DNA of 64,000 nucleotides, from positions 1 to 64,000 of the forward strand of contig PBOZ01000030.1 of NCBI GenBank assembly GCA_002724555.1, in the 5' to 3' direction. Positions 11,145 to 59,860 of the stretch are shown piece by piece. The notes beneath the pieces were generated by a model. It was not told the origin of the DNA and searched no databases. It saw nothing but the letters and a program-made list of their open reading frames with translations. Position numbers and translations under genes: made by a program. How positions within the stretch are numbered: position 1 is the first letter of the stretch; every line of letters begins with the position of its first letter. Source of the DNA: Rickettsiales bacterium. GTDB taxonomy: Bacteria; Pseudomonadota; Alphaproteobacteria; UBA8366.

Positions 11145-11659
11145 TGAGGACGGCGGTCTGGCAAAGCCTGGACATTGCCGCACGCAAGTTCACACCATTT
11201 CTGGTTGCACTTGCCCTTGTAATCGTCAATCTGGTTCCGCTGCATCTACCGGGATATGCAACCATCTCACCGGACCTAGTGCTCATGGCCGTTTATTATT
11301 GGGCACTACACCGACCTTCACTGATGCCCGCGATTGCAGTATTTATTCTTGGCTTGTTTCAAGATTTTCTCTCGGGCGGTCCAATTGGACTGAGCGCCGG
11401 ATCACTCATCTTAGTATTTGCCGTCGCCGTTTCACAAGCCCGTTTCTTTTATGGTAAATCCTTCCTTGTCGTATGGTGGGGCTTTATGATGGTGTCGGTC
11501 GGCGTGGGCATCATTCAGTGGAGTGTAGCCTGCATTTTCTTAGGAAGGTTAATATCGCCGGATCCCGCTTTATTTGAATGCGCGATGAATATCGCTGCCT
11601 ATCCAATCTTAGGTTGGCTGTTTTTCCAGATACACCGCACTCTTCCTGCTGGAGATTAA
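11144..11659 (+). CDS. mreD: Rod shape-determining protein MreD
   Basis: Membrane protein, TAATG overlap with mreC, position. Confidence 0.88.
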   Translation: MRTAVWQSLDIAARKFTPFLVALALVIVNLVPLHLPGYATISPDLVLMAVYYWALHRPSLMPAIAVFILGLFQDFLSGGPIGLSAGSLILVFAVAVSQARFFYGKSFLVVWWGFMMVSVGVGIIQWSVACIFLGRLISPDPALFECAMNIAAYPILGWLFFQIHRTLPAGD

Positions 11660-11665
11660 ATAGAA

Positions 11666-13519
11666 ATGCAGCTGGAAAAACTGCGCTACAAAGCTTTTGG
11701 TCGACGGGCGGCTGTGCTGGGAATTGCCAAACTCCTCCTCTTAGGAGGTCTATGCGGCCGCTTGTATTATCTGCAGGTCGTTGAATCTAAGCGTTATAAG
11801 ATGTTGGCTGATGAGAATCGAATCAACTTACGGCTCTTGGTACCGCCGCGCGGTCATATCGTTGACCGGTACGGCGCGCCGCTCGCCGTGAACATCCAGA
11901 ACTACCGTGTCGTTATGGTGCCAGAGCAGGCGCTCAACGTCGAAGAATCATTAGCGCGCTTAAAAACCATCGTAGAGATCAGTGAGTATGATCGTCGCAA
12001 CGTTCTGAAGGAGGCCCGCCGCCGTCGAGCCTTCATGCCGATTACTGTTCGTGAAAACTTGGAATGGGACGAAGTGAGTCGGATAGAGGTCAATGCCCCA
12101 GATTTACCGGGAATCAGCATTGATGTTGGCCAGTCGCGTTATTACCCCAACGGTAAAGTCGCCGCACATGTGGTGGGGTACGTATCCGCAGTTTCCGAAA
12201 AGGATTTAACCGGCGACCCTTTGCTTGAATTGCCCGGTTACCGGATCGGCAAAAACGGCATCGAACGCCAACATGAACTGGAGCTTCGGGGCACGGCAGG
12301 TAGCAGTCAAGTCGAAGTTAACGCCGTAGGCCGAATCATCAAGGAGCTTAAACGAACCGAGGGCAGACCCGGGCAACGTGTGGTTCTTACCCTGAGCTTA
12401 AACTTACAAAAATTTATCACCGAGCGGATCGCTCGCTATAGGCGCGCGTCGGTTGTCGTCATTGACGTTCGCTCGGGTGAAATTTTATCGATGGTGTCAG
12501 TCCCTGCCTTTGACCCCAACGGTTTTAATCTTGGCCTCGACGCAAAAGCATGGAATGCACTTGCAGAAAACTCGGATGCACCGCTAAACAACAAGGCTAT
12601 TTCCGGACAGTACGCTCCCGGCTCTACTTACAAAATCGCTGTTATGCTAGCCGCACTAGAACATGGTATTTCTCCTGATCATAATGTTTTCTGCACCGGC
12701 TTTAGCGAACTCGGCAGCCAGCGTTTCCACTGTTGGCACAAGCACGGACACGGTTTGGTATCGATGATTGATGCGATGCGTGAATCCTGCGACGTGTATT
12801 TCTATGAGCTCGCACTAAAACTTGGCGTCGATCGCATCGCGCAAACCGCACGAAAACTGGGCCTGGGAGAAACTTTAGACCTCGAGCTGCCCGGTGAGAA
12901 GAATGGCTTAATCCCAACTCGGGCTTGGAAACAAAAGCACTTTGGAAAATCCTGGCTCAAGGGAGAAACCTTGGTTGCCGCAATTGGTCAGGGTTACGTG
13001 TTGACTACACCTCTTCAGCTCGCCGTTATGACGGCCCGTTGCGTCAACGGCGGGTACGCGGTGATGCCAAAGCTCACGCGCGATGCAATCGATGAGGGCA
13101 GCGACAGAGCAAATGCCGCAGATTTTCCGCCGGTTGGTATTTCAGCCCGGTCGCGGCAAATACTGATGCATTCACTTGACGAAGCTATGAACCATCCACG
13201 CGGCACCGCCTATAGGTCCCGCATTTCTGAACCGGGCCGCGTCGCTGGCGGTAAAACTGGAACGGCTCAGGTTCGTCGAATTACGATGATCGAACGTGAA
13301 AGCGGGGTTAAAAAGAACAAAGAAAAGCCATGGCGTGAGCGCGACCATTCGTTGTTCGTCGGATACGCTCCGGTTGATCAACCGCGCTATGCAGTGTCTG
13401 TCGTAGTCGAACACAGCGGCGGCGGTTCGAGGACTGCCGCTCCGATCGCCCACGATGTACTAAAGGAAGTTCAGCGCCTATACGCGCCCAGTCAATTAGC
13501 GAAACGCGGAGCATCTTAA
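11666..13519 (+). CDS. mrdA: Penicillin-binding protein 2
   Basis: 'PPRGHIVDRYGAPLAVN', 'SGQYAPGSTYKI' (SxxK), 'KTGTAQ'; 617 aa. Confidence 0.95.
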   Translation: MQLEKLRYKAFGRRAAVLGIAKLLLLGGLCGRLYYLQVVESKRYKMLADENRINLRLLVPPRGHIVDRYGAPLAVNIQNYRVVMVPEQALNVEESLARLKTIVEISEYDRRNVLKEARRRRAFMPITVRENLEWDEVSRIEVNAPDLPGISIDVGQSRYYPNGKVAAHVVGYVSAVSEKDLTGDPLLELPGYRIGKNGIERQHELELRGTAGSSQVEVNAVGRIIKELKRTEGRPGQRVVLTLSLNLQKFITERIARYRRASVVVIDVRSGEILSMVSVPAFDPNGFNLGLDAKAWNALAENSDAPLNNKAISGQYAPGSTYKIAVMLAALEHGISPDHNVFCTGFSELGSQRFHCWHKHGHGLVSMIDAMRESCDVYFYELALKLGVDRIAQTARKLGLGETLDLELPGEKNGLIPTRAWKQKHFGKSWLKGETLVAAIGQGYVLTTPLQLAVMTARCVNGGYAVMPKLTRDAIDEGSDRANAADFPPVGISARSRQILMHSLDEAMNHPRGTAYRSRISEPGRVAGGKTGTAQVRRITMIERESGVKKNKEKPWRERDHSLFVGYAPVDQPRYAVSVVVEHSGGGSRTAAPIAHDVLKEVQRLYAPSQLAKRGAS

Positions 13520-14670
13520 TGATCAGCCGTGACACTATTAATCCGGCTGTTATGACACTCGGCCAGCGACTTTGGCATTTGAACTGGTTTCTCATTCTTC
13601 TGATCTGCGCACTCGCAAGCGTCGGCTTCATGATGCTATATTCAGCTGGTAATGGCAGCTATTCGCCCTGGGCGGAGCGGCAAATGCTTCGATTTGGGCT
13701 CGGAATGTGTATCATGTTGGCGATTGCGTTGACGGATATCCGAATTTGGCTCAAATATGCATATTTATTCTATGCCGGTTCCTTGATCATGTTGATTGCC
13801 GTAGAGGCTGTCGGTACCGTGGGCATGGGTGCACAGAGATGGATCGACCTCAAAGTGTTTCACCTACAGCCGTCAGAATTAATGAAAATCGCATTAGTAC
13901 TGGCATTAGCACGTTATTTCCATGGATTGAGCTTAGACGAAGTTGCACGCCCGACCTACCTCGTTTTACCCACTCTTTTGGTAGCTGCACCTATAGCCTT
14001 GGTAATGCGCCAACCAGATCTTGGGACTTCCCTTTTATTACTCATGGGAAGCGGCGCGATGTTTTTCCTCGCCGGTGTACGTATGTGGAAATTTGTCTTG
14101 GTGGGCTTAACCTGCTTGTCCGCAATTCCAGTCATTTGGTCAATGCTGCATGTCTACCAGAAAAAGAGGATCATGACTTTCCTCTCACCTGAGAGTGATC
14201 CCCTTGGCGCTGGTTATCATGCGTTGCAGTCATTTATAGCTCTTGGCTCGGGCGGCGTATCGGGCAAAGGCTTCCTGAAAGGAACGCAAAGCCACCTCTC
14301 TTTCCTGCCCGAGATGCAGACGGACTTTATCTTTACCATGTACGCAGAAGAGTTCGGTTTGATTGGCGGGATATTACTTTTGGCGCTTTACACAATAGTG
14401 GTGGCCTACACCTTCGCCATTGCAATGCGCTCACGCAATCATTTCGGACGGCTCGTTTGTATGGGTATCGCGACTATGTTTTTCCTCTACTTCTTCGTTA
14501 ATATTGCGATGGTCACTGGCCTTACACCTGTCGTTGGTGTCCCGCTTCCACTCATCTCTTACGGCGGCACCGCCATGATGACTGTTTTGATCGGCTTTGG
14601 ACTAGTTATGAACGTCTCTATACACCGGGATATGCTTATTAGCCGCCATGGTGAAGTTTCAAATACGTAA
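13519..14670 (+). CDS. mrdB: Rod shape-determining protein RodA (SEDS glycosyltransferase)
   Basis: SEDS motifs 'LQPSELMKIALVLALARYFH', 'GLTPVVGVPLPLISYGGTAM'; TAATG overlap with mrdA. Confidence 0.94.
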   Translation: MISRDTINPAVMTLGQRLWHLNWFLILLICALASVGFMMLYSAGNGSYSPWAERQMLRFGLGMCIMLAIALTDIRIWLKYAYLFYAGSLIMLIAVEAVGTVGMGAQRWIDLKVFHLQPSELMKIALVLALARYFHGLSLDEVARPTYLVLPTLLVAAPIALVMRQPDLGTSLLLLMGSGAMFFLAGVRMWKFVLVGLTCLSAIPVIWSMLHVYQKKRIMTFLSPESDPLGAGYHALQSFIALGSGGVSGKGFLKGTQSHLSFLPEMQTDFIFTMYAEEFGLIGGILLLALYTIVVAYTFAIAMRSRNHFGRLVCMGIATMFFLYFFVNIAMVTGLTPVVGVPLPLISYGGTAMMTVLIGFGLVMNVSIHRDMLISRHGEVSNT

Positions 14671-14763: not shown

Positions 14764-15552
14764 ATGCCTGACACCTCGAACACCGAAAACCTTGTCACCT
14801 ACACATCCAAAAATCAGATCGCGACGATCACGATCAATCGGCCGGACAAACTAAATGCATTATCGAACGGTGTCGTCGCACAGCTTCGCGATGCAATGTT
14901 GCGCCTCCAGGCAAGCAACGACATGTGTGCGATAGTCACCGCGACAGGCGACCGTGCTTTCTCAGTAGGGGCGGATTTACGGGATCCGCCGCGCGACCCC
15001 CAACTCTGGGAATGCATGCCCGGTGTTGGAGTTGATGTCGACAAACCGCTGGTGGCTGCAGTCTCGGGTTATTGCGTCGGCGGAGCCTTCTGCCTAGTTC
15101 AATTCTGCGATTTTGCCGTCGCCTCTGAAAGCGCCGATTTCTTTTATCCGGAAGCCCAGATTGGTTTCTGTGGAGGTTTGATTGCCGGCCTTGCAGCCCG
15201 GCTACCCCATAAGGTCGCCATGGAGTTCATGCTAACCGGCAAACATTTTAGCGCCGCGCGCGCCTATGAAGTTGGCATGGTGAATAAAGTCGTGCCGGTT
15301 GGCGAGCAAGTAAACGCAGCAATGGAATATGCCGAGATAATGAGAAATAGCGCCCCAATGGTGGTGCGCACCGTCAAACGCTTCGTGCGCGACACAGTCA
15401 TCAACCGCGGACCATCCGAACAAAGTGCCCTGGCCCAACGCGAACTACTCTCGATTAGCCGTGGTGAAGATCAACAGGAAGGCGGGCGCGCCTTTAAAGA
15501 AAAACGTAAACCCATCTTCAAAGAAGATTGGAATAAGCCGCCCCTATCGTAA
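14764..15552 (+). CDS. Enoyl-CoA hydratase/isomerase family protein
   Basis: Crotonase fold 'ITINRPDKLNALSNGV', 'FSVGADL', 'KPLVAAVSGYCVGGAF'. Confidence 0.88.
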   Translation: MPDTSNTENLVTYTSKNQIATITINRPDKLNALSNGVVAQLRDAMLRLQASNDMCAIVTATGDRAFSVGADLRDPPRDPQLWECMPGVGVDVDKPLVAAVSGYCVGGAFCLVQFCDFAVASESADFFYPEAQIGFCGGLIAGLAARLPHKVAMEFMLTGKHFSAARAYEVGMVNKVVPVGEQVNAAMEYAEIMRNSAPMVVRTVKRFVRDTVINRGPSEQSALAQRELLSISRGEDQQEGGRAFKEKRKPIFKEDWNKPPLS

Positions 15553-15623: not shown

Positions 15624-15697
15624 GAGCGTATAGCTCAGTTAGCAATTCCGCTGACTTTGGAAATAAGAGTTCCAAAGTTCGAGCCCTTGTACGCTCA
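15624..15697 (+). other. Degenerate tRNA-like element (probable pseudo-tRNA)
   Basis: GAGCGTA (15624-15630) pairs perfectly with TACGCTC (15690-15696); T8A9, 'TAGCTCAGTTAG' D-arm start and 'GTTCGAGCC' T-loop present; D-stem and anticodon stem not intact; no CCA; 9-bp hairpin ACTTTGGAA/TTCCAAAGT inside. Confidence 0.55.
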
Positions 15698-15878
15698 TCA
15701 TGTTTAATAATTTAAACACGAATTTAATTTTTATGGATGTAGTGGTTGCTGAGGCTTCGAATGGGATGATTGTTAATTTGGGCGACGATTTAAACCAGAA
15801 ACGCGCAAATTCATAGGTTTGTATCTTGCTGTCTTTGGCCGGTGTGAGCAGAATTCGGGACGTAAGGAGCCGAACACG

Positions 15879-17120
15879 ATGGCAAAATTAAGTGACTTCG
15901 ACGAAATTGGTCGCGACTTCTACGAGTCGATGCCGATGCCCGAGTTTACTTACACACCTTGGGTAGTGCCTAAACCCATCGCTAAAGCGCGCGTCGCGAT
16001 TATCTCCACTGCAGGCCTGCAACTACGGGGGGACAGACCTTTTTCAGTTAATTCGACAGACTACCGAATTTTACCGAGTAATGCTTCGTCTGCGGATCTC
16101 GTAATGAGCCACATTTCAATCAATTTTGACCGAAGCGGCTTTCAAAAAGATCACAATGTTGCGTTGCCAATTGACCGGCTTAATGAGTTTGTTGCAGATG
16201 GCAAGATCGGCTCGGCCGCCGCCTTTCATTACTCATTCATGGGGGCAACGCACCCAGATAAATTAGAGTATGCTGCTAATCAACTTGCTGATGTTCTCAA
16301 GAAAGATCATGTCGATTCAGTTCTGTTAGTGCCAATTTGACCAGCTTGCACGCGCGCCGTGGGCGGGCTCAGCCACTATCTAGAACGCGCCGGTTTTGCG
16401 ACAGCAGGGATAAGTCTGATCCGACTGCACAGCGAAAGAATTCATCCGCCTAGGGCGCTTTGGGTACCGTTCGAACTTGGGCGCCCGTTTGGTGTTCCCC
16501 ACAACGCAGCTTTTCAAACTCGCGTTTTGCAGAAACTGATAGATTTGTTCGATAGTTCTGAGGGTCCAGTGCTTGTAGATTACCCAGAAGATGCGCCGAG
16601 TAGTGGGTCCAAGGATATGGGGGGACTTGTCTGTCCAGTACAGTTTGATGCTTCTAACATTGAAGACGAAACGTTAGAAATGGCGGTAAACCGTGAAATC
16701 ATCGAATTGTTTCCTTGGTATGACCTCGCCCGTAAGCGGCGCCAGCGCACTACCGTCGGTGTGACAGGACTGGGAATAGAAGAGGTTGCTCGTGCTCTAT
16801 CTAGGTGGTTGACTTCGTCTCCGCCAGAGGACGTCGTAAATGATCAAACGCCAGCCGCCATGTTGAAACTCGCCGTTGAAGATTTGCGGGCATTTTACTT
16901 TGAGGCCGCGGCTGGCCAGCCACACGGAGATTCAATCAGCAGCAAACAACTCGCTGATTGGTTCTGGGGTGAGACATCTGCAGCCAAACTGCTTTTGGCT
17001 TTGCGTGAGCGCCTTATCCTCGATGAAGATCCCGCGTTACAAATGTTAGGCCACAACAGCTTAGTTCCGCGGGAGCAGTGGACACGCTTCAACATTGATG
17101 ACCGCTGGTGGAATGATTGA
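15879..17120 (+). CDS. Selenoprotein of the GrdB/PrdB (glycine/sarcosine/betaine/D-proline reductase selenoprotein B) family, in-frame TGA read as selenocysteine at residue 154
   Basis: ORFs 15819..16340 and 16359..17120 share one frame, separated only by TGA 16338-16340; joined protein '...DSVLLVPI-U-PACTRAVGGLSHYLE...' with UxxC motif; AAGGAGC Shine-Dalgarno 15864-15870 before ATG 15879. Confidence 0.85.
16343..16369 (+). promoter_or_regulatory. Candidate bacterial SECIS element
   Basis: Just after the UGA: 16343-16351 AGCTTGCAC pairs with 16359-16369 GTGGGCGGGCT (9 bp including two G-U, 2-nt GG bulge), 7-nt loop GCGCGCC. Confidence 0.6.
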
Positions 17121-58801: not shown

Positions 58802-59860
58802 TCAAATATCCAAAACAGCGAGATCATCTTGATCCGCGGCGTTGTAGTTCGCATCGTACCACCAAGTCATATAGTCGCTATAGGTGATTGGCGGGTACCT
58901 CGGCGGGTTTCCATTATTGGTACAGGTTGGCAGACAGGCGATCTCCGTATTCAAATGTGGTCCCAGAAAAAAAGGAATTGCGTATCGATGTCGGTCGACC
59001 GGTGGCAGCGCACGGTGCGGTGTCGAGAGATAACGCCCATTGCTCCATCGGTGCAGCGTATCTCCAGTATTTATAACGAACGAGTTTGGTACGTAGGGGA
59101 CATCAAGCCACTTGCCGGGCGCCGTCGCAATCTGCAAACCCGGTACCTCTGATTGCGGCAAAAATGTCATGAAGTTCAAGTCTGTGTGCGGTGCTATGCC
59201 GTAAAGGCCCTCTGTGCGCTCAACAGGCGGATAGTGCGATAGCCGGAACGAAAACTGACTCTCTTCGAAGGGCTGTTCGAAGTAGTCGGCTTTAAGATTA
59301 AGAGACAACGCCAGGGCGGGCATCAACCGTTTTGCCATCGCATCTATTACATCACAGTATTCTAGGACGTTCTCACGGAATCTCGGAAGATTTTCAGGCC
59401 AAATATTTGGCCCAGCAAATCGCCTTTTGGTCAAAACCAACGGGTCATCAGCCGGGCGTTCGCGCTTCAAAAAAAATGCTTCATTCGCATCCGGTTTGAC
59501 CGATTTTTCACTCACGCGCGACGTGCGAACGTTGTAACGTCCTTCCGCCATGTAACCGTTATTGTGTCCGTTCATCCGCAATGCGCGCTTTTCCTCTATT
59601 GCCTGTGCATGGAAACGCCGGGCCTCATCGAAGGTTCGCGCGATGAGGCCCGGCGGGACACCATGATTAACGATTATCAAGAAACCAACATTCTCAAGCG
59701 CATGATTCAACGCACTTGCAACTCGACGCGCTCCGTCCAAACCATCGCGCAACGGCGCTAGATCAATCAAAGGAATGCCATCGCTCACATAGGTTCTCCC
59801 GTAGATGTCGCAAATAGTGCGTTCTTGCCGCAAGCCAAACAAGCATCTTAAATTAACCAA
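58802..59860 (-). CDS. Fe(II)/2-oxoglutarate-dependent dioxygenase (isopenicillin N synthase-like)
   Basis: 'IPLIDLAPL', 'VGFLIIVNHGVPPGLI', 'APHTDLNFMTFLPQSEVPGLQI', 'FVINTGDTLHRWSNGRYLSTPHRAL'. Confidence 0.9.
   Translation of the reverse strand: MVNLRCLFGLRQERTICDIYGRTYVSDGIPLIDLAPLRDGLDGARRVASALNHALENVGFLIIVNHGVPPGLIARTFDEARRFHAQAIEEKRALRMNGHNNGYMAEGRYNVRTSRVSEKSVKPDANEAFFLKRERPADDPLVLTKRRFAGPNIWPENLPRFRENVLEYCDVIDAMAKRLMPALALSLNLKADYFEQPFEESQFSFRLSHYPPVERTEGLYGIAPHTDLNFMTFLPQSEVPGLQIATAPGKWLDVPYVPNSFVINTGDTLHRWSNGRYLSTPHRALPPVDRHRYAIPFFLGPHLNTEIACLPTCTNNGNPPRYPPITYSDYMTWWYDANYNAADQDDLAVLDI

Follow-up and report, generated by a model that had tools for sequence, protein, structure and literature searches.

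A tRNA-Lys(CTT) pseudogene downstream of rodA and ahead of a selenoprotein gene in a Rickettsiales bacterium

Introduction

A tRNA-length element lies ahead of a selenoprotein gene in a stretch of 64,000 nt from a Rickettsiales bacterium (contig PBOZ01000030.1; the whole stretch is called the window below). The question is whether it is a structured RNA with a present role or the remains of a tRNA gene and, if so, of which one. The original prediction had described a decayed tRNA, with tRNA-Lys as a guessed ancestor, and had named the acceptor strands GAGCGTA and TACGCTC, T8A9, the D-arm start GCTCAGTTAG, the T-arm CAAAG-TTCGAGC-CCTTG, a hairpin and an inverted repeat, all of which were found. 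The element and its neighbours are the following.

13519-14670, + strand: rodA (mrdB), a cell-shape gene and the syntenic anchor
14764-15552, + strand: enoyl-CoA hydratase/isomerase gene between rodA and the pseudo-tRNA, not beside rodA in relatives
15624-15700, + strand: full-length pseudogene of tRNA-Lys(CTT) in which TCA replaces the 3' CCA, identified by homology and by synteny downstream of rodA
15624-15630, + strand: 5' strand of the acceptor stem, 7/7 pairs with 15690-15696
15641-15670, + strand: decayed core by comparison with intact orthologs (G18 of the D-loop, 3' half of the D-stem, anticodon arm, variable loop)
15654-15678, + strand: 9-bp hairpin ACTTTGGAA-ATAAGAG-TTCCAAAGT, standing, in the predicted fold, where the anticodon arm would be
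15673-15689, + strand: T-arm with the loop TTCGAGC, 4/5 pairs and one A-C mismatch
15690-15696, + strand: 3' strand of the acceptor stem, paired with 15624-15630
15701-15718, + strand: AT-rich inverted repeat TGTTTAA-TAAT-TTAAACA directly 3' of the pseudogene (-5.4 kcal/mol, z -1.3, not significant), which may be an eroded terminator
15879-17120, + strand: PrdB/GrdB-like selenoprotein gene with an in-frame TGA at 16338-16340, a neighbour outside the element

Combined, the features of the element are far beyond chance, though each alone is near the chance level. Perfect 7/7 pairing at tRNA spacing occurs at 6 of 63,927 window positions, and six perfect hairpins with arms of at least 9 bp occur in the 64 kb, so neither feature is rare by itself. 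Among perfect hairpins with a short loop, the longest of the window is a different one, of 15 bp, at 59616-59655 (CGCCGGGCCTCATCG...CGATGAGGCCCGGCG), possibly a terminator.

Results

Homology of the element to tRNA-Lys(CTT)

The general Rfam tRNA model scored 15624-15700 at 27.0 bits (E 0.0013), just under its gathering score of 29. A covariance model made from 13 rodA-linked tRNA-Lys(CTT) genes scored it at 33.0 bits (E 7.8e-6) over the full length, positions 1-76. In a blastn search of 60 related genomes, matches of 74% identity were obtained with E values down to 9e-6, and the best four were all intact tRNA-Lys(CTT) genes. Alphaproteobacterial tRNA-Lys(CTT) could be aligned with the element over its whole length, from the first base through the CCA, at 73-74% identity; the alignment shows a single base inserted near the anticodon loop of the element, and TCA where the tRNA has CCA. 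The guess at a tRNA-Lys ancestor was thus right and can be sharpened to tRNA-Lys(CTT), whose gene many Alphaproteobacteria carry behind rodA. Two of the earlier statements held only in part. The span is tRNA-length as described, but the part homologous to a tRNA ends at 15700, short of 15718. The canonical CCA is lost, but its position is not simply empty, as TCA stands in register at 15698-15700.

The view that the element is not selC was borne out, with no match to the selC tRNA-Sec model (RF01852) at this place and neither the long variable arm nor the TCA anticodon of a tRNA-Sec. The genome has a proper selC elsewhere (G000:C64:5603-5693, 79.8 bits, backed by ARAGORN), in keeping with the PrdB/GrdB-like selenoprotein gene downstream of the element, and selC or a second tRNA-Sec was rejected as an identity of the element. 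ARAGORN lists the element itself as tRNA-Val(gac), and with an acceptor stem of 7/7 pairs and a T-stem of 4/5 it might be taken for a working but aberrant tRNA. The anticodon called by ARAGORN is, however, about four bases off and lies in the broken anticodon arm, so that tRNA-Val(gac) is an artefact; only 1/4 pairs are left in the D-stem and 2/5 in the anticodon stem, G18 is lost, the 3' tail is TCA and the Rfam score stays below the gathering score. A working tRNA is therefore exceedingly improbable here, and an annotation based on ARAGORN should be read with caution at this locus, as the label would not be real.

Synteny downstream of rodA

When public genomes were scanned with the protein of the neighbouring gene mrdA, 38 loci were obtained, 11 of which, all alphaproteobacterial, have an intact tRNA-Lys(CTT) gene downstream of mrdA-rodA on the same strand (L160, L162, L163, L164, L165, L166, L180, L190, L192, L194 and L195). 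L161 also has one, but its sequence repeats that of L160 and it was left out of the 11. The gap between the end of the rodA match and the tRNA gene was 80-221 bp in 10 of the 11 loci; in L195, rodA was aligned only in part. Within the family, an intact tRNA-Lys(CTT) gene follows rodA on the same strand after about 0.2 kb in G007 and after about 1.9 kb in G003. In the window, the element stands 0.95 kb downstream of rodA with the enoyl-CoA hydratase gene in between. Since relatives carry the intact gene downstream of rodA on the same strand, the element is read as its in-place, decayed ortholog, and the synteny with rodA is the decisive evidence for this.

The rodA-downstream genes of L160, L192, L180 and G007 share with the element full-length homology (73-74% for the closest), the strand and the rodA neighbour. 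The element differs from them in its broken D-stem and anticodon stem, its 1-nt insertion, the loss of G18, the change of CCA to TCA and the enoyl-CoA hydratase gene before it. In G003, G008 and G009, the relatives that were checked, the orthologs of this last gene lie behind a CoA-transferase-like gene, so the gene has moved and was of no use for synteny. The congeners G001 and G002 have no rodA in their assemblies, the contig of G002 stopping after mrdA. In a RodA tree, the row of the window stood on a long branch, placed outside its family, and the tree gives no count of losses.

A tRNA-Lys gene in this position could also have served as the target of an integrating element, of which the present sequence would be a leftover att site. 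Genes for tRNA-Lys seem to be integration targets in relatives. At L043 (G009:C64, 1300-1570), the end of an integrase-like reading frame lies beside the 3' part of a tRNA-Lys with a degenerate 5' part, which looks like an attachment-site remnant. At L160, a partial second copy of tRNA-Lys (11206-11250, tRNA positions 32-76, 89%) follows the intact tRNA-Lys(CTT) at a distance of about 1.35 kb and may mark an integrated element. In the window, however, the element retains the two strands of its acceptor stem, and no part of it recurs elsewhere as a copy of at least 12 nt; an att site is barely conceivable as the explanation.

Decay of the tRNA core

The description as a decayed tRNA was confirmed by the full-length tRNA homology, by the location at the same place as intact orthologs and by the broken D-stem and anticodon stem. 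Among the 13 intact orthologs, 57 alignment columns are invariant, and the element breaks 13 of these within positions 18-46, including G18 (G18G19 reads AG), as well as C74. At 16 positions it has a letter that no ortholog among the 13 shows; 13 of the 16, and the insertion, fall within positions 18-46, a region that is nearly invariant among intact tRNA-Lys(CTT) genes. The changes thus amount to 13 of 29 core positions versus 3 of 47 elsewhere (Fisher p 1e-4, with the borders drawn post hoc). In the acceptor stem, both sides of the pair G2-C71 are changed to give A2-U71, which is seen in 0 of the 13 syntenic tRNAs. The clustering and the two-sided change could reflect a lasting constraint on the outer half of the element.

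The element failed the tests for a functional tRNA, with no cloverleaf that includes a D-stem and an anticodon stem and with the Rfam score under the gathering score. On sequence and model grounds, 15624-15700 could serve neither as a tRNA in translation nor as a lysine decoder. It is an ordinary tRNA pseudogene of clear descent, what is left of a normal lysine tRNA gene that has died.

Predicted fold of the element

The predicted fold of the element consists of a long closing stem and two hairpins (-29.7 kcal/mol, z -5.6), and its stability is comparable to that of the intact orthologs (-28.5 to -33.7 kcal/mol). When the decay of a hypothetical pre-decay gene was simulated, equal stability was reached in 3% of runs with evenly spread changes and in up to 14% with changes confined to the core. 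The outer stems survive, and so the overall stability of the fold is unremarkable. A 9-bp hairpin arose in 0.1-0.5% of the simulated runs; the one in the element is uncommon, was picked post hoc and may stem from palindrome-directed copying or from selection. At 15654-15678, the perfect 9-bp palindrome stands in the place of the anticodon arm, and neither of its arms is the same as in the intact gene; here a decaying tRNA gene may have undergone palindrome-directed mutation. A literature search for palindrome-directed mutation in bacterial tRNA genes found nothing useful.

The selenoprotein gene downstream

A tRNA remnant with this fold might have been re-used as the leader of the selenoprotein mRNA. 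The best hint of a function comes from the yjdF riboswitch (RF01764), which is a reported homolog of tRNA-Lys and whose T-arm pairs with the ribosome-binding site, a precedent for the control of translation by tRNA-Lys-derived leaders (PMC9142559). The element is likewise derived from tRNA-Lys and lies upstream of a gene, on the same strand and 178 nt ahead of its start codon. The 3' half of its T-arm (15677-15689) is complementary to the ribosome-binding site (15863-15875); pairing of the two would be the off state, and the compact fold, stable as its z score is, would free the ribosome-binding site. The predicted duplex is GTTCG-A-GC-CCTTG against TAAGG-A-GC-CGAAC (-14.7 kcal/mol). Of the 31-nt stretches in the window, 1.1% reach this strength, and of 50 starts of long ORFs none does. 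However, across the ensemble of folds of the complete leader only 0.02 T-arm:ribosome-binding-site pairs are expected; with the element embedded, this leader is not unusually structured (z -0.8), and the ribosome-binding site pairs just as well (-14.6) with an intact tRNA-Lys taken from an unrelated locus. The D-loop GG conserved in yjdF, which contacts the T-loop, reads AG in the element, so that the needed counterpart of G18 is lost, and the predicted fold is not a cloverleaf. An Rfam scan of the element (E up to 10) gave only tRNA and an insignificant Methylobacterium-1 match, with no yjdF (RF01764).

The association with the selenoprotein gene is not conserved either. None of 27 loci of related selenoprotein genes in the family has a Lys-tRNA-like element upstream; the single match was a genuine tRNA-Pro at L089, and a link of the element to the selenoprotein family was rejected. 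Taken together with the evidence in its favour, we regard a leader function as very unlikely, and the position of the element before the selenoprotein gene looks accidental. The selenoprotein gene itself is 43-49% identical to the best copies in the family, nearly all of which have the in-frame TGA as well. Several copies occur per family genome, some of them in tandem (G003:C14, G007:C55 and G009:C24).

Conservation and expression signals

Searches of IMG/VR, of plasmids and of 43 further genomes from the order gave no copy of the element core. The search for copies in the genome and its relatives, proposed with the original prediction, likewise gave no second copy, the element being in no other genome searched, and a mobile or repeated element was rejected. 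Between 15400 and 16000, neither a sigma-70-like promoter nor an intrinsic terminator was found. These results bear on the idea that the element is an independent pseudo-tRNA or small RNA which, like tRNAOther in Bacillus cereus, does something other than serve translation. Deletion phenotypes are known for transcripts that contain a pseudo-tRNA, and tRNAOther, transcribed within a larger RNA, is kept in other strains of its group (PMC3399842). The element resembles it in being derived from a tRNA and in not being a tRNA of translation, and the retained acceptor stem and T-loop and the stable alternative fold would suit such a role. It differs in having no counterpart in the other genomes searched, and with no promoter- or terminator-like site found around it, a small RNA would be slightly less probable even than a leader. 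The earlier argument that the intact acceptor stem suggests retained structure did not hold up: recent decay could leave the stem by chance, no relative searched has the element and the selenoprotein link is not conserved.

Loss of tRNA-Lys(CTT) in the family

Lysine tRNAs were recognisable in eight genomes of the family. In six of them (G001, G004, G005, G008, G009 and G010) tRNA-Lys(TTT) was present and tRNA-Lys(CTT) was not, and only G003 and G007 have kept both. No lysine tRNA was seen in G002 (65% complete) and G006 (70% complete), nor any at all in the window's own genome assembly (65% complete). The regions after rodA in G004, G005, G008, G009 and G010 yielded no tRNA or relic. tRNA-Lys(CTT) thus appears to be absent from most of the family, with tRNA-Lys(TTT) alone left. 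Both lysine codons are used in ten window genes (AAA 74, AAG 43). Modification of U34 enables tRNA-Lys(TTT) to read AAG as well as AAA, and we infer that the loss of tRNA-Lys(CTT) is tolerable for this reason; the pattern in the relatives is supportive.

Discussion

The element is very probably the non-functional remnant, still in place, of the tRNA-Lys(CTT) gene downstream of rodA. The enoyl-CoA hydratase gene now stands between rodA and the tRNA. The middle of the tRNA (3' half of the D-arm, anticodon arm) has been scrambled, and sequence and models show that what remains can neither work as a tRNA nor decode lysine codons. The anticodon arm may have been partly rewritten by a local palindrome-directed copying error. 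The loss would have been borne through the reading of both AAA and AAG by tRNA-Lys(TTT), as the relatives suggest. The tidy alternative fold would be a by-product of an acceptor stem and T-arm that have so far escaped erosion, and we propose no present function for the element.

Bacterial tRNA pseudogenes are tRNA-like loci that in all likelihood cannot yield a functional tRNA (PMC9858662). The element is like them in this respect and differs in that its parent and syntenic intact orthologs have been identified. If the leader reading were true, the locus would be a second independent case, after yjdF, in which a tRNA-Lys became a leader RNA; unless that reading proves right, the element is biologically ordinary. 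What the locus offers is a tRNA gene death in place, with a known parent, with intact orthologs at the same locus and in a lineage from which tRNA-Lys(CTT) has apparently been lost elsewhere too.
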